47,067 bases of DNA from Candidatus Fimenecus excrementavium (GTDB lineage: Bacteria; Bacillota; Clostridia; Oscillospirales; Acutalibacteraceae). The position numbers and the translations under genes are program-made. Below, one piece after another: positions 9,107 through 19,160 of this stretch (within the stretch, counting starts at the first letter, position 1; each line of letters begins with the position of its first letter). The DNA is taken from NCBI GenBank assembly GCA_018712805.1, contig DVGI01000046.1:1-47067 (forward strand), in the 5' to 3' direction. The notes under the pieces are model-generated. The model saw only the letters and a list, made by a program, of their open reading frames with translations. It was not told the origin of the DNA and ran no database searches.

Positions 9107-9820
9107 TCAACCGGCCGCTTCCATAGATTTTTTTAACTGTCCTAAGATTCTTTTTTCCAGTCTGGATATATAGCTTTGCGAAATACCGAGCAGGTCGGCG
9201 ACTTCCTTTTGGGTGTGTTCGCCTTCCCCGTCTAAACCAAAGCGCATATTCATAATCATACGTTCTCTGGAAGGTAACGTGCGCACACATTTTAAAAGCA
9301 ACTTTTTTTCGTCGTCATATTCCAAATTTTCGTGAATGGAGTCCGGTTCGCTGCCGAGAATGTCAGAAAGCAGCAGTTCGTTGCCGTCCCAATCCACATT
9401 GAGCGGTTCGTCAATCGAAACATCTGCTTTGTGGGTGCTTGTTTTGCGAAGATACATTAAAATTTCATTTTCGATACAGCGCGAGGCGTAAGTGGCAAGC
9501 TTGATATTTTTTTCAGGACGGAACGTGTTGACGGCTTTAATTAGCCCGATTGTACCAATCGAAATCAAATCTTCGACAAACACGCCGGAAGTTTCAAATT
9601 TTTTCGCGATATAAACGACAAGCCGCAAGTTGTGGACAATCAGCTCTTCGCGAACGGCGCTCTCCCCGCTTTGCAAGCGCGCAAGGAGCGCCTCTTCCTT
9701 CTCTTTGGATAGCGGCTCCGGAAGCGCTTGCGAGCCGTTGATATAATGAATCTTTCGCCTGAAAAGAAAGAATTTAATTCTTTGTAATAAGCTTTGCATC
9801 TTTTCGAGTATTGTGTTCAT
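9107..9820 (-). CDS. sigE: Sporulation sigma factor SigE (mother cell, early)
   Basis: 237 residues. Region 2 contains [36 protein letters not shown] and [18 protein letters not shown]. Region 4 ends in [15 protein letters not shown]. The extra basic and hydrophobic N-terminus (about 1-28) is the pro-sequence cut by SpoIIGA in the known pathway. ATG 9820 is preceded by GGAAAGGGG. The start lies 47 nt inside the end of spoIIGA in another frame, pointing to translational coupling with its own activating protease. SigE directs RNA polymerase to early mother-cell sporulation genes. Confidence 0.95.
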
Positions 9821-10676
9821 AAGTACCCCTTTCCAAAAAATTATTGCTTAATAAAACCGAATATTCGTCGGAGAGGTTTTTCTCCTTACTTTGAGCTAAT
9901 AACACATGCTGCACTATTAAGCCTAATTTCGCCACACGGACTTTGTCAATCAAAACCGCTTTTAAAACGCCGTTGTCACCGACCGTAGAAAACGGAATCA
10001 GCCGGATACGCTCCGTAGATTCCGTTTCAAAGTCCTTTTTGATTAAAAACAAGCTGTCTAAATCCGTGCCGAGCAATGCTTTAATGACGCTTGGCGCTGC
10101 AACCAAAACCGGCGTGTCGGAAAAGCCGTCGGAAAGCGCGTTGCCGGTATCTAAAAGTGCTTTTGCAGAGACCGTTTTGTCGTTGTGACAAAGCTCTATT
10201 TCATAAATTTTGTTATCAGGCGTTCGGCGTTTCAAAAGGAATCCGGCAAAACTTAAAATACCGTAACAGGCAAGGGTTGAAAGGACAAGCACTTTCATAT
10301 CAATATTAAAATAGACCGCGCCGTTGTTATAAACCATACCTTTCGGGTGTAACGACAGCCAAAGCGCCAACATCAGCCCGGCAAACGCAAAATTCACGAC
10401 CAAAAACGCCCAGAAAGCTTTTAAAAATTCGCGAAAAGTATGTACGGGAATCGCCGCGAGCACAATAAGGCAGCAGGCGGCTATGTTGAGAAGTACAGAA
10501 AGAATATCCGATAGCTCCGGCACAAAAATGATAAGCGAATAAAGTCCGCCGAGCACAGCACCGAAGGCTAACCGCCTGCGCTTTACGGTTTTGCGCAAGA
10601 GACCTCTTGTGCAAAGCAGCAAAAAGTAAGTTACAAAAATATTGAGTGCGACCAAGACATCCACATATACGACCAT
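9774..10676 (-). CDS. spoIIGA: Pro-SigE processing aspartic protease SpoIIGA
   Basis: 300 residues. Five hydrophobic membrane segments fill the first 155 residues, followed by a cytoplasmic protease half with [10 protein letters not shown] (catalytic Asp176) and [18 protein letters not shown]. In the B. subtilis system this half dimerises into a retropepsin-like enzyme that cleaves pro-SigE after a signal from the forespore. I start it at ATG 10676 because GGGGG lies 7 nt before it. An earlier in-frame ATG at 10694 lies directly behind the T-run of a terminator and has no ribosome binding site. The gene is followed by the overlapping sigE. Confidence 0.93.
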
Positions 10677-10699
10677 AGAAACGCCCCCAAACATAAAAA

Positions 10700-10765: not shown

Positions 10766-11176
10766 TTATTTCGTGCGCCGCAGGTAATCTTCTAAAATAA
10801 TCACGGCGGAAACGGCGTCAACGACCGCTTTTCGTTTCTTGCCGCGCGTATTGGTAAGGTTTAACGCGTTGTGCGCGCTGACGGTGGTCAGTCGTTCGTC
10901 CTGAAAATCGACCGGAAGCCCGGATTTTTCCGAAAGCAGAGCCGCAAACTCCCGACAAGCCTGCGCACGAAAGCCCTCGGAGCCGTCCATATTTTTCGGA
11001 AGCCCCAAAACCAGCTTTTGCGCTTTTTTCTCGGCTGCTATACGGCAAATTTCGTCGGCTAACGGTTCTTTTTCGGATTGATGAATCACCGTGACCGGCG
11101 ACGCGAGCATTTGCAGCGCGTCACAGGCGGCAATCCCCGTTCGCGCATCGCCGTAATCCACAGATAAAATTACCAT
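10766..11176 (-). CDS. ruvX: RuvX/YqgF-type nuclease (pre-16S rRNA processing, Holliday junction resolvase-like)
   Basis: 136 residues in an RNase H-like fold. LSVDYGDARTGIAA at the start carries the first catalytic Asp; LVLGLPKNMDGSEG, DFQDERLTT (Glu) and VDAVSAVIIL (last Asp) follow in the expected order. Members mature the 5' end of 16S rRNA, and related proteins resolve junctions. ATG 11176 overlaps the pyrD stop by 7 nt (ATGGTAA). Longer in-frame extension upstream is only pyrD read in another frame. It is the last gene before the terminator at 10700. Confidence 0.93.
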   Translation of the reverse strand: MVILSVDYGDARTGIAACDALQMLASPVTVIHQSEKEPLADEICRIAAEKKAQKLVLGLPKNMDGSEGFRAQACREFAALLSEKSGLPVDFQDERLTTVSAHNALNLTNTRGKKRKAVVDAVSAVIILEDYLRRTK

Positions 11177-12081
11177 GGCTGCACCTTGCCGATAATATCG
11201 GTGACGGATTTTTCGCCGTTCGCATCTAAATAATCGTTTAAGCCCTGAATCACTTTTAAGGGCGTGTAAGCGTCGGTAAAATTCGCGGTGCCGATTTGAA
11301 TGGCGGTGGCACCTGCCAACAGCATTTCCACAGCGTCTTCCCACTTTGAAATGCCGCCCATGCCGACCACAGGGATTTTCACGCGGTTCGCGACCTGCCA
11401 AACCATGCGCAGCGCGACCGGGAACACAGCGGGACCGGACATACCGCCGGTGTTGTTCTTGAGCAGCGGACGGCGGGTGCGAATATCAATTTTCATGCCG
11501 GTAAGTGTGTTAATCAGCGAAACAGCGTCTGCGCCGCCGGCTTCCGCCGCGGCCGCCATTTCCGTAATGTCGGTGACATTCGGCGTAAGTTTCACCATCA
11601 GCGGCTGTTCGGCAACAGCTTTCACCTGTTTCGTAATGTTTTCCACACTTTTTGCAGACGTGCCGAAAGAAGCACCGCCCTCTTTGACATTCGGGCAGGA
11701 AATATTTAATTCAATCATATCGACTTTGCTGCCCTGCAACCGGCGGACGGATTCCACATAGTCCTCGACCTGACTGCCGGCAATGTTGGCGATAACCTCC
11801 AAATCTTTTTGTGCTAAAAACGGCAGGTCATCTTTTAAAAAGGCATCGACACCGGGGTTTTGCAGCCCGACGCTGTTTAAAATCCCGCTGGGGGTTTCGG
11901 CAATACGCGGCGGGAGATTTCCCGGGCGCTCGTGGAGCGTTGTGCCTTTACAGGAAATGCCGCCGAGTTTGGAAATATCATAAAGACGTGCGTATTCCTG
12001 GCCGAAGCCGAAAGTACCGCTTGCGGTAATCACCGGGTTTTTAAACTGCACACCGGCAATATTGACGCGTAGATCAGCCAT
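11170..12081 (-). CDS. pyrD: Dihydroorotate dehydrogenase class 1B, catalytic subunit
   Basis: 303 residues, normal for PyrDB. It has ITASGTFGFGQEY near the N-terminus, the active-site loop NISCPNVKEGG with the catalytic Cys of class 1B enzymes, and a C-terminal FMN phosphate site GMGGISKWEDAVEMLLAGA. With PyrK it oxidises dihydroorotate to orotate and passes electrons to NAD+. I chose ATG 12081, preceded by GGGAGG at 9 nt. It overlaps the pyrK stop by 8 nt, so the two subunits are translationally coupled. Confidence 0.96.
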   Translation of the reverse strand: MADLRVNIAGVQFKNPVITASGTFGFGQEYARLYDISKLGGISCKGTTLHERPGNLPPRIAETPSGILNSVGLQNPGVDAFLKDDLPFLAQKDLEVIANIAGSQVEDYVESVRRLQGSKVDMIELNISCPNVKEGGASFGTSAKSVENITKQVKAVAEQPLMVKLTPNVTDITEMAAAAEAGGADAVSLINTLTGMKIDIRTRRPLLKNNTGGMSGPAVFPVALRMVWQVANRVKIPVVGMGGISKWEDAVEMLLAGATAIQIGTANFTDAYTPLKVIQGLNDYLDANGEKSVTDIIGKVQPW

Positions 12082-12841
12082 TGAAATCAACCTCCCTTGC
12101 ATCAAACACAGGTCCGTTTTTGCAGACGTGGCGCATATGCTCGCCGTCTTTTTCGTGGGTCTTGCAGGCACACGCCAAGCAAGCGCCGATGCCGCAGCCC
12201 ATGCGCTGTTCCAAAGAAACATAGCACAAGACGTTTTTTTCGTTGCAAAGCTCCGCAACGCCTTTTAACATCGGCATAGGTCCGCAGGCATAAACCACAC
12301 AGTCGGTGTCGCTTTCAAGTTTTTCACGCAAAACGTCGGTCACAAAGCCTTTTGTGCCGAACGAACCGTCATTGGTCGTGACGCTGACGCTTTGGCAGCA
12401 TTTTTCAAATTTATCGAGCAAAATGACTTGCGCTTTCGAACGGAAGCCCAAAATCGCCTCGGCTTTTTCGCCGTAATCCTGCGCTGCACCGAGCATGGGC
12501 GGGCAGCCGATGCCGCCGCCGATGAAAATGGCACGTTTCCCTTTATCCGGGAAAAAGCCGTTGCCCAAAGGTCCTAAAATGTTGATTTCGTCGCCTGCTT
12601 TTCGCTGTGCAAGCCAGGCAGTCCCCTCGCCGCGCACCTCGAAAACAAGCGTGATTGTACCCATTTCCTGGTCGATTTCGCTAATTGAAATCGGGCGGCG
12701 CAAGGTTTTTTCGCCGCACTGAATGTTGACAAATCGGCCGCACCAACTCTCAGAAGCTAAATTCTTGCAATCGACCACAAAGCTAAACGTGGTCGGGTTG
12801 AGCTGTTCCACGGACTGGATTTTGTAAAAAGACTGAAACAT
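12074..12841 (-). CDS. pyrK: Dihydroorotate dehydrogenase electron-transfer subunit
   Basis: 255 residues. A ferredoxin-reductase-type FAD domain contains RRPISISEID; the NAD domain starts at FIGGGIGCPPML and includes YACGPMPML. The C-terminal segment EQRMGCGIGACLACAC followed by a later HVC supplies the four [2Fe-2S] ligands. ATG 12841 follows AAAGGAG. PyrK feeds electrons from the FMN of PyrD to NAD+. It lies 16 bp after carB. Confidence 0.96.
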   Translation of the reverse strand: MFQSFYKIQSVEQLNPTTFSFVVDCKNLASESWCGRFVNIQCGEKTLRRPISISEIDQEMGTITLVFEVRGEGTAWLAQRKAGDEINILGPLGNGFFPDKGKRAIFIGGGIGCPPMLGAAQDYGEKAEAILGFRSKAQVILLDKFEKCCQSVSVTTNDGSFGTKGFVTDVLREKLESDTDCVVYACGPMPMLKGVAELCNEKNVLCYVSLEQRMGCGIGACLACACKTHEKDGEHMRHVCKNGPVFDAREVDFNG

Positions 12842-12857
12842 TGGTTTCTCCTTTACA

Positions 12858-15854
12858 TTAAAGCGGTTGTACGCGGATTTCTTCCACGACGTCATTTTTG
12901 GCAAGGCAGTTTGCAAAGGCTGTTGCCATTTCCACAGACGGCAGAACCGGAATTCGGCGAAGCAGTGCAGTTCGGCGAATCCGGACGTCGTCGGAATTTT
13001 GCTTCGGACCGGATTCGGCGGTGGAAACCAAATAAGAAAGCCGGTTTTTCATAATCAAAGTCATCGTATTCGGCGCGCCCTCGTGAATTTTGCGCACAGC
13101 ATTTGCCGCCACATGGTTCGCATTGAGCAATTTCGCCGTGTTGGACGTTGCATAAATTTTGAAATCCTGTTTTAAAAATTCGTCTGCCAGCGCAACACTC
13201 GCCTGTTTGTCGGAATCCGCAACAGAAATCAGCACGCCGCCGGTGCGCTTGATGCGCATGCCGGAAGCGACAAAGCCTTTTAAGAGCGCTTCTTCAAACG
13301 TGTCGGCTACGCCCATCACCTCGCCGGTGGATTTCATTTCACCGCCGAGCTGGACATCGGTGCCCTCAAGCTGTTCAAAGCTGAACACCGGCACGCGGAC
13401 ATATGACCGGTCGGGTTCTTTATAAAGCCCGGTGCCGATGCCGATGTCGCGCAGAGTTTCACCGAGCATCAGACGTGTTGCGAACTCGATAATCGGCAGG
13501 GCGGTTGCTTTCGTCAAAAACGGAATATTGCGCGTTGCAACCGCGCTCGCTTCGGTGACATAGACTTCGTTGTCATACACCACGAACTGCAAGTTCAAAA
13601 GCCCTTTGATTCTCAGCCGGCGCACCAAACGCGCGGTGTACTCGACGATTTCATCTTTGACCGCGGGCGTGAGCGTCACGGTCGGATACACGCTGACGGA
13701 GTCGCCGGAGTGCACCTGCGCTTTTTCAATGTGTTCGCAAATGCCGGGGATTAAGAAATCCTCGCCGTCGGTCAAAACATCCACCTGGGCCCCTTTACCG
13801 ACCAAAACGCGGCGGTTGTTGGTGTGGCGAATATTTAAGCTGTCTAAAATATCGAAAAACTCGATTTTGTTTTTAAGCATGCGGTGCGTTTCCGCGTCGG
13901 CGCCGTAAATCTGCACACCCATTTCGCGCAGCGCTTCGGATTTTCGAAGTGCGTTGCCGCCGCCGAAAATCAAAATCGCACCGTCAGGTTTTTCCGTCGC
14001 TGCAACATGGCAAATATCCTCTTCGGTAATCGGGTCGGCATAAAGCTTATCCGCCGCGGCAAAATCGGTGGTGTTGGCCGCCGGATTGTTGTTGAGCATC
14101 ACGGTTTCATAGCCGAAATCGGAAAGCGTACGCAGCGCCTGAAAAGCGGCATAATCGCGGTCGGTGCCAAGACCGATAGAAGTCGGACCCGCGCCGACAA
14201 CCAAAATTTTCTTTTTCTTCTGCGGGTGCATATCAAGATACATTGCCGCCTCGTTGTCTTCATCCCAGGCGGAATAGAAATAAGGCTTCTGCACGTCAAA
14301 TTCCGCCGCGCAGGTATCCACGGTGTTGTAAGTCGCGTGCGCGGAAAACGGCAATTTTTCAAGGTCGGCAAGCTTCATAATCACGCTGTCTAAGAAACCG
14401 AGCGCTTTTGCACGATAGTAAATTTCTTCGGTAAGACCGGACGCGATCAGCGCTTCCATATCGGCAATATTTTTAAACTTCGAAAGGAAGAAATTGTCGA
14501 TTTGCGTGAGCTTATGGATTTCGTCTAACGGCATATTGCGGCGCACCGCTTCATACACGGTGAAAATCCGCTCGTCGTCGTGAACGCAAAGCAATTCTTT
14601 GATTTCTTCGTCGGATTTCAGCCGCAGTTTTGGCAACGCCAAGTGCTCGGTTTTGGGGTTGATGGAACGAATGGCTTTTAAGAGCGCCAGTTCAAAGCCC
14701 GTGCCGATAGCAAACGCTTCGCCGGTGGATTTCATGGTGTCACCAAGCACACGGTCGGCATCACCAAAATTTTCAAACGACCATTTCGGTACACGCACCG
14801 CGCAATAGTCAATTGCCGGTTCATTTGCCGCCGTGGTCACGCCGGTAATCTCATTCGGAATTTCAAATAATTTATAGCCGAGCGCTATTTTGGCGCAGAC
14901 CACCGCAATCGGGTAGCCGGTCACTTTGGAAATCAGCGCCGTGGTGCGGTTGAGCTGAGGTTCGACGTCTAAAACGATATAATCCCCGGTCTGCGGGTGC
15001 AGCGCAAAGCGAACAAGACAGCTTCCGGCAATTTTTAAATACCGCGCAATTTTCCGCGCCGCGCGGCGAAGTCTGGACATTTCGTTGTCGGTCAACGTTT
15101 GCGCCGGCAAAACCACCACGCTGTCGCCGGAGTTGGTGCCGACTGCGTCCAAATTTTCCGTACTGCAAACGCTGATGCAGTTGTCATAAGCGTCGCGAAT
15201 CGCGGCAAATTCAATTTCTTTGTAGCCGCCGATGAATTTTTGTATAAGCACTTGCCCGACCAGTGATTTTTCCGCACACGCCGGGAACGCCGCTTTCAAT
15301 GCGGTTTCATCATTACAAGGAATAAACTCCCCGGCTTCCGCAGAAAATGCGGTCTTAATACAAACCGGGTAGCCTGCCTTTTCAGCAAATTCCGCGGCTT
15401 CTTCGGCGGAATTGACGATATCAGCGGGCAAATACGGCTCGCCTGCGTCACGAAGCATGGTTTGCAGCGCCTGCGCATTGCGGACACTTTTAATCACGTC
15501 CGGCTGTGCGCCCAAAAGCACCGTGTGGTGCTCATCCAAATAGCCGTTTTGCGCAAGTTCCAGACAGATTTCAAGCCCGGTTTTACCGCCTGCGGTCGCA
15601 AGCACGCCGTCCGGCTGTTCCAACTCGATGATTTTTTTCACCGTTTCCCCGTTTAACGGTTCGATATAGACCTTATCGACGAGCTGTTTGTCGGTCATCA
15701 CGGTTGCGGGGTTCGAGTTGACCACTACAACTTCGATACCCTCATTTTTCAAGGTGCGGCACATTTGCGTGCCGGCATAATCAAATTCGCTCGACTGCCC
15801 AATGACGACAGGTCCCGCGCCGATGACCAAGATTTTGCGGAATGTCGGTTTCAT
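12858..15854 (-). CDS. Degenerate CarB-like protein (carbamoyl-phosphate synthase large subunit paralogue, probably inactive)
   Basis: 998 residues versus about 1070 for CarB. Overall layout is kept: ATP-grasp half 1 (about 1-400), oligomerisation domain (400-545), ATP-grasp half 2 (545-865), allosteric MGS domain (870-990). Key residues differ by my alignment to E. coli CarB. Half 1: Arg169 is Lys167, the glycine loop is SAEAGEF (171-177), His243 is Asn241, Gln285 is Arg282, Glu299/Asn301/Arg303 are Asp296/Glu298/Gln300. Half 2: about 60 residues around the nucleotide loop are missing near residue 676, and Asn843/Arg845 are Ser770/Val772. The frame is fully open, begins with ATGA overlap to carA, and has a strong GGAGG. 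It probably cannot make carbamoyl phosphate by the normal mechanism; its real role is unknown. Confidence 0.85.
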   Translation of the reverse strand: MKPTFRKILVIGAGPVVIGQSSEFDYAGTQMCRTLKNEGIEVVVVNSNPATVMTDKQLVDKVYIEPLNGETVKKIIELEQPDGVLATAGGKTGLEICLELAQNGYLDEHHTVLLGAQPDVIKSVRNAQALQTMLRDAGEPYLPADIVNSAEEAAEFAEKAGYPVCIKTAFSAEAGEFIPCNDETALKAAFPACAEKSLVGQVLIQKFIGGYKEIEFAAIRDAYDNCISVCSTENLDAVGTNSGDSVVVLPAQTLTDNEMSRLRRAARKIARYLKIAGSCLVRFALHPQTGDYIVLDVEPQLNRTTALISKVTGYPIAVVCAKIALGYKLFEIPNEITGVTTAANEPAIDYCAVRVPKWSFENFGDADRVLGDTMKSTGEAFAIGTGFELALLKAIRSINPKTEHLALPKLRLKSDEEIKELLCVHDDERIFTVYEAVRRNMPLDEIHKLTQIDNFFLSKFKNIADMEALIASGLTEEIYYRAKALGFLDSVIMKLADLEKLPFSAHATYNTVDTCAAEFDVQKPYFYSAWDEDNEAAMYLDMHPQKKKKILVVGAGPTSIGLGTDRDYAAFQALRTLSDFGYETVMLNNNPAANTTDFAAADKLYADPITEEDICHVAATEKPDGAILIFGGGNALRKSEALREMGVQIYGADAETHRMLKNKIEFFDILDSLNIRHTNNRRVLVGKGAQVDVLTDGEDFLIPGICEHIEKAQVHSGDSVSVYPTVTLTPAVKDEIVEYTARLVRRLRIKGLLNLQFVVYDNEVYVTEASAVATRNIPFLTKATALPIIEFATRLMLGETLRDIGIGTGLYKEPDRSYVRVPVFSFEQLEGTDVQLGGEMKSTGEVMGVADTFEEALLKGFVASGMRIKRTGGVLISVADSDKQASVALADEFLKQDFKIYATSNTAKLLNANHVAANAVRKIHEGAPNTMTLIMKNRLSYLVSTAESGPKQNSDDVRIRRTALLRRIPVLPSVEMATAFANCLAKNDVVEEIRVQPL

Positions 15855-16933
15855 GCGCGCACCTCCTTCATGGTTTCCAAAAAGCTGTCAAAAATCCAAG
15901 ATGTACTGCTGTCGCGATCGCCGGACGGCGTAAACTGGACGCCGACTCCGGGGAACGCTTTATAGCGAAGCCCCTCAACGGAGCGGTCGTTGATATTGCT
16001 GAACAAAATCTCAGCCGTTTCGGGAAGAACGCTGTCGCGCGCCACGCAGTAGCCGTGATTTTGGTCGGTCACCATCAAACGGTCGGTGTTTTCAATCAAA
16101 ACCGGCTGGTTGGAACCTCTGTGCCCCTGCGGCATTTTGACAATTTTCGCGCCGACGGCAAGTGACAGCATTTGATAACCAAGCCCGATTGCCAAAACCG
16201 GAATACCGCTTTTTATAATCTCGCAGATATGCTCAATAAGCTCAGGGTTGTCATCCGGGTCCGCCGGGCCGTCGGAAAGCAAAATCCCGTCGGGTGAAAG
16301 CGCCGCGATTTGCTCGGCGGTGTAATCGGCCGGCAAAATATCCAACGAACACCCGCGCGAGGTAAAGGCGTCGAGCGTTTTACGCGGAAAGCCGTAATCC
16401 AAAACCGCTACGCGAAACTTTGCGTTTTCGGTTTCGATATGTTCGGGGGTCTTTACTGTAATCGCCTCAACGGCGCCGGAAATCGTGTATTTTTTGATGT
16501 CTTCTAACAGCGCTTCACGGTTTTGAAGGCTGTCGGTAATCGCACCTTTCATATAGCCTTTATCCCGCAACGCACGCGTTAAGCGGCGTGTGTCGATGCC
16601 GTAAATCCCGACAATTCCCTGTTCACGAAGATAGTCATCTAAAGAGAGTGCACCGTCACCCGACACGTCGCACCATTCGCGGACGATATAGCCGTTGGAC
16701 ATAATTTCGGACTCTTTGCGTTCGCGCGAAACGCCGCGGTTGCCGACCAAAGGATAAGTTTGCGCGACAATCTGGCCGTAATAGGTCGGGTCGGACAAAA
16801 GCTCTTCATAAGAAGCCGTGCAGGTATTGAAAACAACTTCCCCGATCGCCGTGCCGGACTTTCCCATAGAATAGCCCGAAAACTCGGTTCCGTCTTCTAA
16901 AAGCAAGTAGGCTTTTTTGATTTGTTGCGTCAT
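15851..16933 (-). CDS. CarA-like protein without the glutaminase triad (probably inactive)
   Basis: 360 residues with the full CarA layout: N-terminal CarA domain (EVVFNTCTASYEELL, GIYGIDTRRLTRALR) and a class I glutamine amidotransferase domain from about 172. In E. coli CarA the triad is Cys269, His353, Glu355. Here the nucleophile elbow reads AIGLGYQ, with Gly250 for Cys and Tyr253 for the next His. The His-Glu motif reads VQFTPSGD, with Thr335 and Ser337. The DNA is unambiguous (GGG at 16184-16186, ACG at 15929-15931). Glutamine hydrolysis should therefore be impossible. The substrate-binding QNHGY motif and HRGSNQPV remain. ATG 16933 follows AAGGGG; the stop overlaps the next start by 4 nt (ATGA). 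Confidence 0.88.
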   Translation of the reverse strand: MTQQIKKAYLLLEDGTEFSGYSMGKSGTAIGEVVFNTCTASYEELLSDPTYYGQIVAQTYPLVGNRGVSRERKESEIMSNGYIVREWCDVSGDGALSLDDYLREQGIVGIYGIDTRRLTRALRDKGYMKGAITDSLQNREALLEDIKKYTISGAVEAITVKTPEHIETENAKFRVAVLDYGFPRKTLDAFTSRGCSLDILPADYTAEQIAALSPDGILLSDGPADPDDNPELIEHICEIIKSGIPVLAIGLGYQMLSLAVGAKIVKMPQGHRGSNQPVLIENTDRLMVTDQNHGYCVARDSVLPETAEILFSNINDRSVEGLRYKAFPGVGVQFTPSGDRDSSTSWIFDSFLETMKEVRA

Positions 16934-16954: not shown

Positions 16955-17869
16955 TTATAAAACGCTGCTGATTTCGTCACGCATGCGAATGGCTTCCTCG
17001 CGTGCGGCTTTTGCGTAGTCGGTTTCAGCATAATCGCCTTTTTTGTAAGCGCACATAATCCCGCGGGAAGAATTAATCACCGCGCCGCGGCCGGCTTTGT
17101 CAAACGCAGGCGCTACGTCTTTTGCGCCGCCGCCCTGCGCGCCGTAGCCGGGCACCAAGAAGAAAGTGTGGGGAAGCGCATTTCGAAGCTCGCCCAACTG
17201 CTGCGGATAAGTCGCGCCGACCACCGCGCCGACAGCCGAATAGCCGTATTTGCCGCGGGTATCTTCGCCCCATTTTTCACACATCGCGCCCATTGTTCGG
17301 TAAACGGTGTTGCCGTCAAGGATTTTGTCCTGCAACTCGCCGGAGGACGGATTGGAAGTTTTGACCAAAACAAAAATCCCCTTATCCTGTTCGCGGCAAA
17401 TCGGCAGAAGCGGTGCAACGCCGTCCGTGCCGAGATAGCCGTTGACAGTCAGTGCGTCGCTGTCAAACGGCGCATAAGTCTTTTCACCGACCGAAACTTT
17501 GCCTAAATGTGCGGCAGCGTAAGCCTCCATTGTGGAGCCGATGTCGTTGCGCTTGCCGTCGGTGATGACAAACAAGCCCTTGCTTTTTGCATAAGAAATG
17601 GTTTCATACAGCGCGCGAACGCCCTGCCAGCCATACATTTCATAATAAGCACACTGGGGTTTCACCGCCGGAACGATATCGCAAAGCGCGTCTATAAGCC
17701 CTTTGTTGAAAGTCAACAGCGCATCTGCCGCGCCCTCTAATGTAAATCCGTATTTTTCAAACGACTGTTTGCGGATATATTCCGGCACATAGTCAAGCTT
17801 CGGGTCGAGCCCCGCAACCGTCGGATTTTTCTTTTCGGCGATTGCTTCAATCAGTCTGTCAAACCCCAT
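16955..17869 (-). CDS. pyrF: Orotidine 5'-phosphate decarboxylase, long (type 2) form
   Basis: 304 residues, typical of the longer OMP decarboxylase group. NPTVAGLDPKLDYVP is at the N-terminus; the catalytic Asp-Lys-Asp set is in FVITDGKRNDIGSTMEAY; the C-terminal phosphate site is PGYGAQGGGAKD plus VINSSRG. It converts OMP to UMP, the last step of UMP synthesis. I chose ATG 17869 (after GGGAGAAAAACT) rather than an in-frame ATG at 17905. It overlaps the pyrC stop by 11 nt. Confidence 0.95.
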   Translation of the reverse strand: MGFDRLIEAIAEKKNPTVAGLDPKLDYVPEYIRKQSFEKYGFTLEGAADALLTFNKGLIDALCDIVPAVKPQCAYYEMYGWQGVRALYETISYAKSKGLFVITDGKRNDIGSTMEAYAAAHLGKVSVGEKTYAPFDSDALTVNGYLGTDGVAPLLPICREQDKGIFVLVKTSNPSSGELQDKILDGNTVYRTMGAMCEKWGEDTRGKYGYSAVGAVVGATYPQQLGELRNALPHTFFLVPGYGAQGGGAKDVAPAFDKAGRGAVINSSRGIMCAYKKGDYAETDYAKAAREEAIRMRDEISSVL

Positions 17870-19160
17870 AGTTTTTCTCCCTTTCATCTTCAAAAACAAT
17901 TTCACCGTTGTAAACGGTCATTTTAATTTTGGATTGCAGTTTCATGCCTTTGAACACCGCGTTTTTAGATTTTCCGTGCAGACGCTCCGGGTCAACGACC
18001 CATGTCTCGTGTTCGTCAATCAAAATCAAATCCGCCGGCGCACCCACGCGCAAAGTACCGAGGTCACGCCCCAAAATTTTGGCGGGCAAAGTGCTCATGC
18101 GGTAAATCAGTTCTGAAACCGTCATAAGTCCTGTTAAAACCAGCGCGGTATAAGCGGCGCAAAAGGACGTTTCCATACCGATTACACCGTTCGGCGCATT
18201 TAAGAAATCTGATTTTTCCAAAGGTGTGTGCGGTGCGTGGTCGGTGGCAATGACGTCTAAGGTGCCGTCCACAAGTGCTTTTAACACCGCTTCTTGGTCC
18301 GCTTTCGTGCGCAGCGGCGGGTTCATGCGGTAGTCGGCGTCTTTCGTGCGCAGCATTTCGTCGTTCAACATAAAATAATGCGGGCCGGTTTCGGCGGTAA
18401 CCGAAAGGCCTCGCCGTTTTGCGTCGGCAATCAGCGCGACGCTGCCCGCTGTGCTGACGTGGCAAATGTGCAGCATTGTGTTTTCGGGCGCAGTCATCAA
18501 AAGCGCTAGTTCGCGCGCGGTTCCCACGTCTTCCGCGGCGTTCGGAATTCCGGGAACGCCGAGTTCACGGGAAACTTTCCCCTCGTTGATTTTGCCGCCT
18601 TTGGAAAGCGTTTGGTCTTCCGTATGGGCAAAAATCGGTACGTTCAGTTTGGAAGCCTCGCGCATGGCTTCTGCCATTAACGCCGCCGTAGCGACCGGCA
18701 CGCCGTCATCGGAGAACGCGCAGGCACCCGCTTTTTTCAAGGCTTCCATATCGGTGAGTTCCTGACCGGCAAGGCCTTTTGTAATCGCGGCAACCGGCAA
18801 AACGCGAGCTTTCGCGTTTTTGGATTTTTCGAGAATATAAGCAATTGTTTCCGGCGTGTCGCAGGTCGGTTTAGTGTTGGGCATCGCACAAAGCGTTGTC
18901 ACGCCTCCCGCTGCCGCAGCGGCACAGCCGGTTAAAATATCTTCCTTTTCGGTAAAGCCCGGATCGCGCAAATGGGTATGCAAGTCAATGAGCCCCGGGG
19001 CTAAAATAAGCCCCGAAGCGTCAATTCTTTTTGCGCCGTCTGCAGACAGGCCCTGTCCGACGGCGGCAATTTTACCGTCGCGGCAAAGCAAATCGCAAAC
19101 AACGTCCATATTTTGCGAGGGGTCAATGACCCGCGCATTTTGAAACAGAAAAGCAGACAT
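17859..19160 (-). CDS. pyrC: Dihydroorotase (class I)
   Basis: 433 residues of the amidohydrolase superfamily. Metal ligands are visible in DLHTHLRDPGFTEKED (HxH), FSDDGVP (Asp), FAHTED (His), LHICHVST (His) and VIATDHAPHTP (Asp). NPPLRTKAD is the substrate-binding loop. It cyclises carbamoyl-aspartate to dihydroorotate. ATG 19160 follows AGAGGG. It is 18 bp behind the penicillin-binding protein gene and overlaps pyrF. The product of the missing pyrB step must come from elsewhere in the genome. Confidence 0.95.
   Translation of the reverse strand: MSAFLFQNARVIDPSQNMDVVCDLLCRDGKIAAVGQGLSADGAKRIDASGLILAPGLIDLHTHLRDPGFTEKEDILTGCAAAAAGGVTTLCAMPNTKPTCDTPETIAYILEKSKNAKARVLPVAAITKGLAGQELTDMEALKKAGACAFSDDGVPVATAALMAEAMREASKLNVPIFAHTEDQTLSKGGKINEGKVSRELGVPGIPNAAEDVGTARELALLMTAPENTMLHICHVSTAGSVALIADAKRRGLSVTAETGPHYFMLNDEMLRTKDADYRMNPPLRTKADQEAVLKALVDGTLDVIATDHAPHTPLEKSDFLNAPNGVIGMETSFCAAYTALVLTGLMTVSELIYRMSTLPAKILGRDLGTLRVGAPADLILIDEHETWVVDPERLHGKSKNAVFKGMKLQSKIKMTVYNGEIVFEDEREKNYGV

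Follow-up and report, generated by a model that had tools for sequence, protein, structure and literature searches.

The pyrimidine operon of Candidatus Fimenecus excrementavium encodes homologues of both subunits of carbamoyl phosphate synthetase (CPSase), CarA and CarB, which have lost residues at all three catalytic centres, are held under purifying selection, keep the nucleotide pocket of the MGS effector domain and occur together with an active CarB. Judged from its residues, the pair is very probably a pseudoenzyme. The explanation that we rank first, at roughly 45%, is that this pseudo-CPSase senses a nucleotide and controls, in trans, the cell's active CPSase, where the ligand, the partner and the direction of control are those that we infer. 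The data suggest that an enzyme may have turned regulator in some gut bacteria, as its catalytic sites look broken and its nucleotide-sensing end is preserved. CPSase is a textbook allosteric enzyme that serves arginine and pyrimidine synthesis, and an apparently fully dead CPSase that is under selection, next to an active one, opens the control of carbamoyl phosphate for two pathways to testing.

Catalytic centres of the operon-encoded CarA and CarB

In the window, the whole stretch of 47,067 nucleotides that was analysed, pseudo-carB is a stop-free frame with an ATG start, read from 15854 to 12858 within the minus-strand gene order PBP, pyrC, pyrF, carA-like, carB-like, pyrK, pyrD, ruvX, spoIIGA, sigE (Table 1). 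Its start overlaps pseudo-carA by 4 bases, an arrangement found in the window and 9 more of the 16 loci compared. An Rfam scan of the window found no known leader element, and beyond a tRNA no family reached its gathering score. In pseudo-CarB, Pfam recognised CPSase_L_D1 and D2 stretches, two of each, together with the oligomerisation domain (CPSase_L_D3) and the MGS domain. Its best solved relative is E. coli CarB (669.5 bits), and it scores 966.5 against TIGR01369, under the cut-off of 1027, and 979.6 against PRK05294, above the cut-off of 599. Domain, sequence and structure matches extend the homology with CarAB across all domains of both subunits; the predicted model of pseudo-CarB retains the CPSase fold, and that of pseudo-CarA (pLDDT 89.3) has 1jdb_F as its top PDB match (TMq 0.91). 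Curated models label both genes as active CPSase subunits, which is a hazard for annotation.

Table 1. Features of the pseudo-carAB operon in the window
Feature	Position	Strand	Details
Pseudo-CarB, homologue of CarB lacking both catalytic ATP-grasp sites	12858..15854	minus	998 aa
First ATP-grasp half (about residues 125-397)	14664..15482	minus	R129, R169, G175, G176, H243, Q285, E299, N301, R303 lost
Second ATP-grasp half (about residues 659-797)	13464..13880	minus	R675K, E761G, N843S, R845V and deletion
Deletion junction	13791..13820	minus	window residues 679-688 bridge E. coli ~691-761; ~60 residues gone
MGS effector domain (about residues 866-998), nucleotide pocket kept	12861..13259	minus	S877, K883, T903, T906, K922, H924 = E. 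coli S948, K954, T974, T977, K993, H995
Pseudo-CarA, small subunit without glutaminase triad	15851..16933	minus	360 aa; C269 = G250, H353 = T335, E355 = S337
pyrC, dihydroorotase	17859..19160	minus	
pyrF, OMP decarboxylase	16955..17905	minus	
pyrK, dihydroorotate dehydrogenase electron-transfer subunit	12074..12916	minus	longest ORF
pyrD, dihydroorotate dehydrogenase	11170..12258	minus	longest ORF; real start probably further downstream

The residue numbers of the E. coli catalytic sites are those that we take to be the accepted ones, except for C269, H353, T977, K993, S948, T1042 and H995. The first six of these follow the accessible part of PMC6245113, and H995 follows the title of a reference that appears there. 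Comparison with E. coli CarB revealed that most catalytic positions are missing in both ATP-grasp halves. The motif changes named in a preliminary description of this DNA are present in the translation, with KTAF in place of RPSF, SAEAGEF in place of the glycine loop and DVEPQLNR in place of EMNPRVSR in half 1, and EASAVATR in place of EVNPRAAR in half 2; the deletion of about 60 residues that it described was recovered by alignment. Half 1 retains E215 and R306, the latter as the sole survivor of the carboxyphosphate ATP site (R129, R169, G175/G176, Q285, E299, N301, R303, R306). Half 2 lacks R675, R715, G721, G722, D753, E761, G786, N843 and R845, owing to substitutions (R675K, E761G, G786Q, N843S, R845V) and to the deletion of R715 to D753, and retains S789, Q829, E841 and R848, so that E841 and R848 are what is left of the carbamate kinase ATP site (R675, R715, D753, E761, E841, N843, R845, R848). 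The genus-set alignment shows L756 as deleted; the alignments with other genera and across the order show it as matched. The earlier expectation that neither phosphorylation should work normally agrees well with the loss of most catalytic positions and the partial deletion of the second ATP-grasp domain.

By its residues, the glutaminase of pseudo-CarA is dead as well, like both CarB halves: all 17 adjacent CarAs of the genus have G, T and S/D/N/K in place of the triad Cys269/His353/Glu355. The preliminary description did not mention the dead CarA and was silent on the strand, on an intact carAB on another contig and on intermediate states in other genera.

Retention of the pair and its place in the operon

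Among 39 genomes sampled from the genus, pseudo-carB is full length in 18 and present as a contig-end fragment in one more (G008). All 18 full-length orthologues have an open frame, a damaged half 1 and the half-2 lesion, that is the R715-D753 deletion together with replaced E761, N843 and R845. A sequencing or assembly artefact was rejected on the basis of the intact frames and the same lesions in 18 genomes, and chance loss on the basis of the shared half-2 deletion and half-1 damage. The dN/dS comparison suggested in the preliminary description indicated purifying selection, with pairwise maximum-likelihood ω values for pseudo-CarB of 0.035, 0.071, 0.050, 0.050, 0.062, 0.035 and 0.047 in seven pairs (2ΔlnL against ω = 1 of 406-870), which are approximate because many pairs have a dS that approaches or exceeds 1, and some pairs share a species; on these values a pseudogene was rejected. 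Pseudo-CarA gave 0.034-0.075 in six pairs, the seventh being saturated. The neighbours, in five pairs, gave 0.068-0.143 (PyrC), 0.038-0.077 (PyrF), 0.054-0.097 (PyrK) and 0.045-0.085 (PyrD), and the active CarB gave 0.004-0.020 in seven pairs. Pseudo-CarB is thus constrained at the level of an ordinary operon gene and less than the active CarB. In the tree the pseudo-CarBs form one clade with subclades A (12 members) and B (6 members); their active counterparts show the same A/B split, and the pseudo-CarB branches are much longer.

The full order PBP-pyrC-pyrF-carA-carB-pyrK-pyrD-ruvX is found in 11 of the 12 A-subclade loci, the twelfth (L029) ending at a contig edge, and the full pyr operon order is shared by three other genera (L208, L209, L210, L237); in L123, L211 and L247 the pyr operon is without carA or clipped at the contig end. 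Such constancy of placement would be expected if the pseudo-CPSase were a structural scaffold that senses nothing and organises the Pyr enzymes of the operon (PyrC, PyrK and PyrD, with PyrB encoded elsewhere), and there is a precedent in the inactive Pseudomonas pseudo-dihydroorotase, which is required for ATCase activity according to the available text of PMC7053772. In the B subclade, however, pyrK and pyrD have left the locus in 6 of 6 cases and pyrC and pyrF in all 5 cases with a visible upstream side, while pseudo-CarB is retained under selection (ω of 0.035 and 0.047 in two pairs), which argues that these neighbours are not obligatory partners. Separate pyrC/K/D sets were seen elsewhere in four B-subclade genomes (L259, L260, L261, L264). 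A pure scaffold also does not predict the high conservation of the MGS domain, and we regard this explanation as unlikely.

The MGS pocket and the second CarB

The MGS domain, which the preliminary description had called comparatively well kept, has the highest ratio of identity in dead to intact proteins of all domains (0.94, from an identity of 0.564 for six dead genera represented by one protein each and of 0.600 for eight intact relatives), followed by the pre-MGS segment (0.84), the oligomerisation domain (0.69), the two domains preceding the ATP-grasp domains (0.60 and 0.55) and the ATP-grasp parts (0.38-0.64), in a comparison of sets that may differ in divergence. Within the intact set, the MGS and oligomerisation domains are the two least conserved. 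All eight scored pocket columns are invariant in the A subclade (n=12), and only 0.73% of random MGS column sets are equally conserved; the catalytic columns are no more conserved than the surrounding domain, with a mean entropy of 0.84 versus 0.75 in half 1 (4 of 11 invariant) and 0.52 versus 0.53 in half 2 (5 of 9 invariant). In the active CarBs of these genomes (read in 11 of 12), which served as a control, 7 of 8 pocket columns and 20 of 20 scored catalytic columns are invariant. Conservation of the pocket is therefore common to dead and active copies and not special to pseudo-CarB.

K954, T974, T977 and K993 are present in the window protein, in 12 of 12 A-subclade proteins and in all 7 loci from five further dead genera. 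The pocket loop K993-x-H995-E-G is kept in 12 of the 13 dead pyr-operon CarBs compared, a set without B-subclade members, and is found only in some active CarBs. In L211, K993 is R and H995 is S, and none of the six B-subclade members has kept the K993-H995 loop; the gene is still retained in both cases. The B-subclade proteins also have 9 of 11 half-1 positions fixed, several to residues foreign to active CarBs, and the combination of mostly fixed catalytic columns with a partly lost pocket speaks against a single function across the clade. T977 and K993 are crucial for UMP inhibition and binding according to the accessible part of PMC6245113, and the pyr CPSase of B. subtilis is inhibited by UMP, as stated in the available portion of PMC4403831.

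The window genome carries a carAB with all scored catalytic residues on another contig (G000:C5; L036), and the single transcarbamylase gene found in this genome lies ~4 kb from it. A second CarB could be read in 23 of the 26 genomes with a dead pyr CarB, namely 17 of 18 of the genus and 6 of 8 others (G050, G448, G607, G432, G428, G435), leaving G014 (a fragment), G600 and G605. All 23 keep every scored catalytic residue and carry D783 and P1017, and the 14 that were placed in a tree form one clade (100/100). In six family genomes whose pyr CarB is intact or altered only at R675, the second CarB is of a 1349-1366 aa type without the D783/P1017 signature. The 14 active partners compared have S or T in place of H995 and G in place of E996; H995 is also missing in many active CarBs of genomes free of pseudo-CarB. 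K993 of the active CarB is kept in 11 of 11 A-subclade genomes read and lost (P or S) in 6 of 6 B-subclade genomes, where it is missing from both the pseudo- and the active CarB. The pairing and the joint loss of K993 would fit a division of labour between the two CarBs, although each may go back to a single ancestral event.

In the trans-regulation that we favour, an ancestral CarA/CarB pair of the pyrimidine operon would have lost glutamine hydrolysis and both ATP-dependent phosphorylations while selection kept the protein. Its MGS domain would still bind the effector nucleotide of pyrimidine CPSases, UMP or possibly IMP or PRPP, and the effector-bound pseudo-complex would act in trans on the intact second CPSase, most simply through an MGS-to-MGS or oligomerisation-domain contact. 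Of the two paralogous CPSases, one would then supply catalysis and the other pyrimidine feedback, in the manner of a prozyme. Pseudo-CarB has the mark of a regulatory pseudoenzyme, loss of catalytic residues in a protein under selection. The earlier suggestion that what is left may be a regulatory protein with some ability to sense a nucleotide is likewise consistent with purifying selection and the kept pocket, and leaves room for a structural role. Contacts between regulatory domains are named as the basis of CPSase dimers in the accessible part of PMC6245113. The model is weakened by the absence of CarA in three lineages (G040, L123, L211) and the pocket loss in the B subclade, by an oligomerisation domain that is not specially kept, and reduced in L123 and L211, and by the sharing of pocket conservation with active copies. 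It is further weakened by the lack of H995 in many active CarBs of genomes without pseudo-CarB and by the report, in the same part of PMC6245113, that oligomerisation as such leaves the regulation of the E. coli enzyme unaffected. A more specific form, in which the whole dead CarA-CarB complex serves as trans-acting regulatory subunit of an active CPSase from which effector contacts have been lost, would be the first CPSase prozyme and is a tentative proposal, somewhat less probable than trans-regulation as such.

A nucleotide sensor with a target other than CPSase, such as transcription or another enzyme of pyrimidine or arginine synthesis, would draw on the same pocket conservation and could account for the persistence of pseudo-CarB after CarA loss. 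Pfam, however, finds no DNA-binding or other added domain in pseudo-CarB, and the active CarB is of one signature in all 23 dead genomes read; we consider such a target improbable, to about the degree of the scaffold.

Compared with E. coli CPSase (CarAB / PyrAA-PyrAB; 1JDB/1A9X), the pseudo-pair has full-length homology in both subunits, the same domain order and predicted fold and the same MGS pocket residues, but has lost the glutaminase triad, the two phosphorylation sites and, in the second ATP-grasp domain, ~60 residues. Human CPS1 (5DOU) and other glutaminase-less CPSases resemble it in a small-subunit part without glutaminase catalytic residues; CPS1 retains the two phosphorylation sites and works with ammonia. 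Regulatory pseudoenzymes as such are already known, as described in the available parts of PMC5201418 and PMC7053772. The AdoMetDC prozyme of T. brucei is likewise a dead paralogue beside an active one (PMC5201418), but it is an unrelated protein with a structurally demonstrated complex, whereas a regulatory role and the partner are here proposed, and the pseudo-CPSase derives from an enzyme of two subunits, neither of which is alive. The pseudo-dihydroorotase of P. aeruginosa ATCase is also a pseudoenzyme of the pyrimidine pathway, retained for what it does to an active enzyme of that pathway (PMC7053772), but it assembles a different enzyme, while the proposed target of the dead CPSase is an active CPSase. 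The literature searched, a body of text that excludes most subscription journals, yielded no account of a dead CPSase complex.

States of the operon in other genera

In the family of these genomes, which we take to be Acutalibacteraceae, the operon is found in several states. CarA is dead and CarB intact in L215, L240, L242 and L244, and also in L241, whose CarA lies in two frames; L239 has an intact CarB without CarA. In L214 and L238, CarA is dead and half 2 is altered only by R675K, a change also found in L216, where CarA is unseen. A dead CarA, a dead half 2 and a variably damaged half 1 are combined in L208, L209, L210, L237, L243 and L247, and in L123 (940 aa) and L211 (914 aa) both CarB halves are dead and CarA is gone. 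From these states we infer a loss order of CarA, half 2, half 1 and finally the CarA gene itself; in this putative order, the series resembles a natural record of the passage from enzyme to sensor.

The variable damage to half 1 bears on whether the remaining fold still binds ATP or runs a partial or different reaction. Genus g177 (L210, L237) retains 9 of 11 scored half-1 positions, some of the positions fixed in the A and B subclades are fixed to new residues, and the CPSase fold is predicted to persist. Across the 12 A-subclade proteins, however, R129 is replaced by A/E/P/T, position 299 is A/D/E/G/S, and R169 and G176 vary too, which implies that no fixed residues stand in for the phosphate and metal contacts and that no substitute metal site is evident. 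Residual or new catalysis is therefore even less probable than a scaffold. Substitute catalytic residues were looked for in this subclade and are unsupported: D296-x-E298 of the window protein might resemble a metal site, but the subclade is variable at position 299. Decay with chance retention of the gene pair, which the longer branches and the unequal loss between genera might recall, is very improbable given 18 of 18 open frames, the ω values and the retention of a dead pyr CarB in at least six genera.

Outside the family, the 19 top-ranked CarBs of an order-wide search all keep the scored catalytic residues, the twentieth locus (L228) belonging to the family genome G381. At the level of the order (394 genomes, 168 genera), the deletion type occurs, among the matches listed (down to ~173 bits, below which more degenerate copies may lie), only in the 5 sampled gene-bearing genomes of genus g1, and a search of viral contigs returned no relative. 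In the operon tree the dead genera lie close together, with deep nodes weakly supported and the fast-evolving G448 misplaced; half-2 death may have had one origin or several. At E 1e-62, a family search found the deletion type in 5 of 398 genomes, of which G842 and G607 belong to further genera. Matching contig numbers and coordinates indicate that G842/G050, G381/G461, G530/G479, G494/G435, G491/G432, G487/G428 and G518/G465 are probably the same genomes. The long CarBs of three other loci carry a C-terminal diaminopimelate epimerase domain, and an additional CarB of another type is present in G013 and G045.

CarA lacking Cys269 beside complete CarB

Loss of the glutaminase cysteine of CarA (Cys269, E. 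coli numbering) next to a CarB retaining every scored catalytic residue was observed in numerous gut lineages, and this sequence pattern suggests repeated conversion to ammonia-dependent CPSases. At another locus (L241:4293-5328), CarA appears split into two overlapping frames of 143 and 221 aa, reflecting either a frameshift or an assembly error.

Loci read in other genomes (complete, all scored CarB catalytic residues present; g1, the window's genus)
Feature	Locus	Remark
Cys269-less CarA, complete CarB	L042, L043, L099, L101	g1 B-subclade
Same	L057	
Same	L059, L226, L227	
Same	L221, L222	
Same	L236	
Same	L246	
Same	L249	
Same	L212	
Same	L127, L131, L133, L138, L141, L146, L171, L173	many labelled Gastranaerophilales
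CarB with C-terminal PF01678	L063:7419-11390	domain scan
Same	L062:8384-12610	domain scan
Same	L121:1119-5153	domain scan

CarB-DapF fusions

All three long CarB proteins scanned (1323-1408 aa) carry a diaminopimelate epimerase domain C-terminal to the MGS effector domain; these are CarB-DapF fusions of gut Clostridia.

Surroundings of the pyr operon

In four B-subclade genomes (L259, L260, L261, L264), a pyrC-pyrK-pyrD set of another kind lies at a separate site; a carB was seen next to it in none of the four, and their pseudo-carB still adjoins ruvX. In the window, the genes that immediately follow ruvX and the pyr operon on their 3' side encode a sporulation sigma factor and a SpoIIGA-like protease (9107-10694); they occupy the same position in many loci of the genus.
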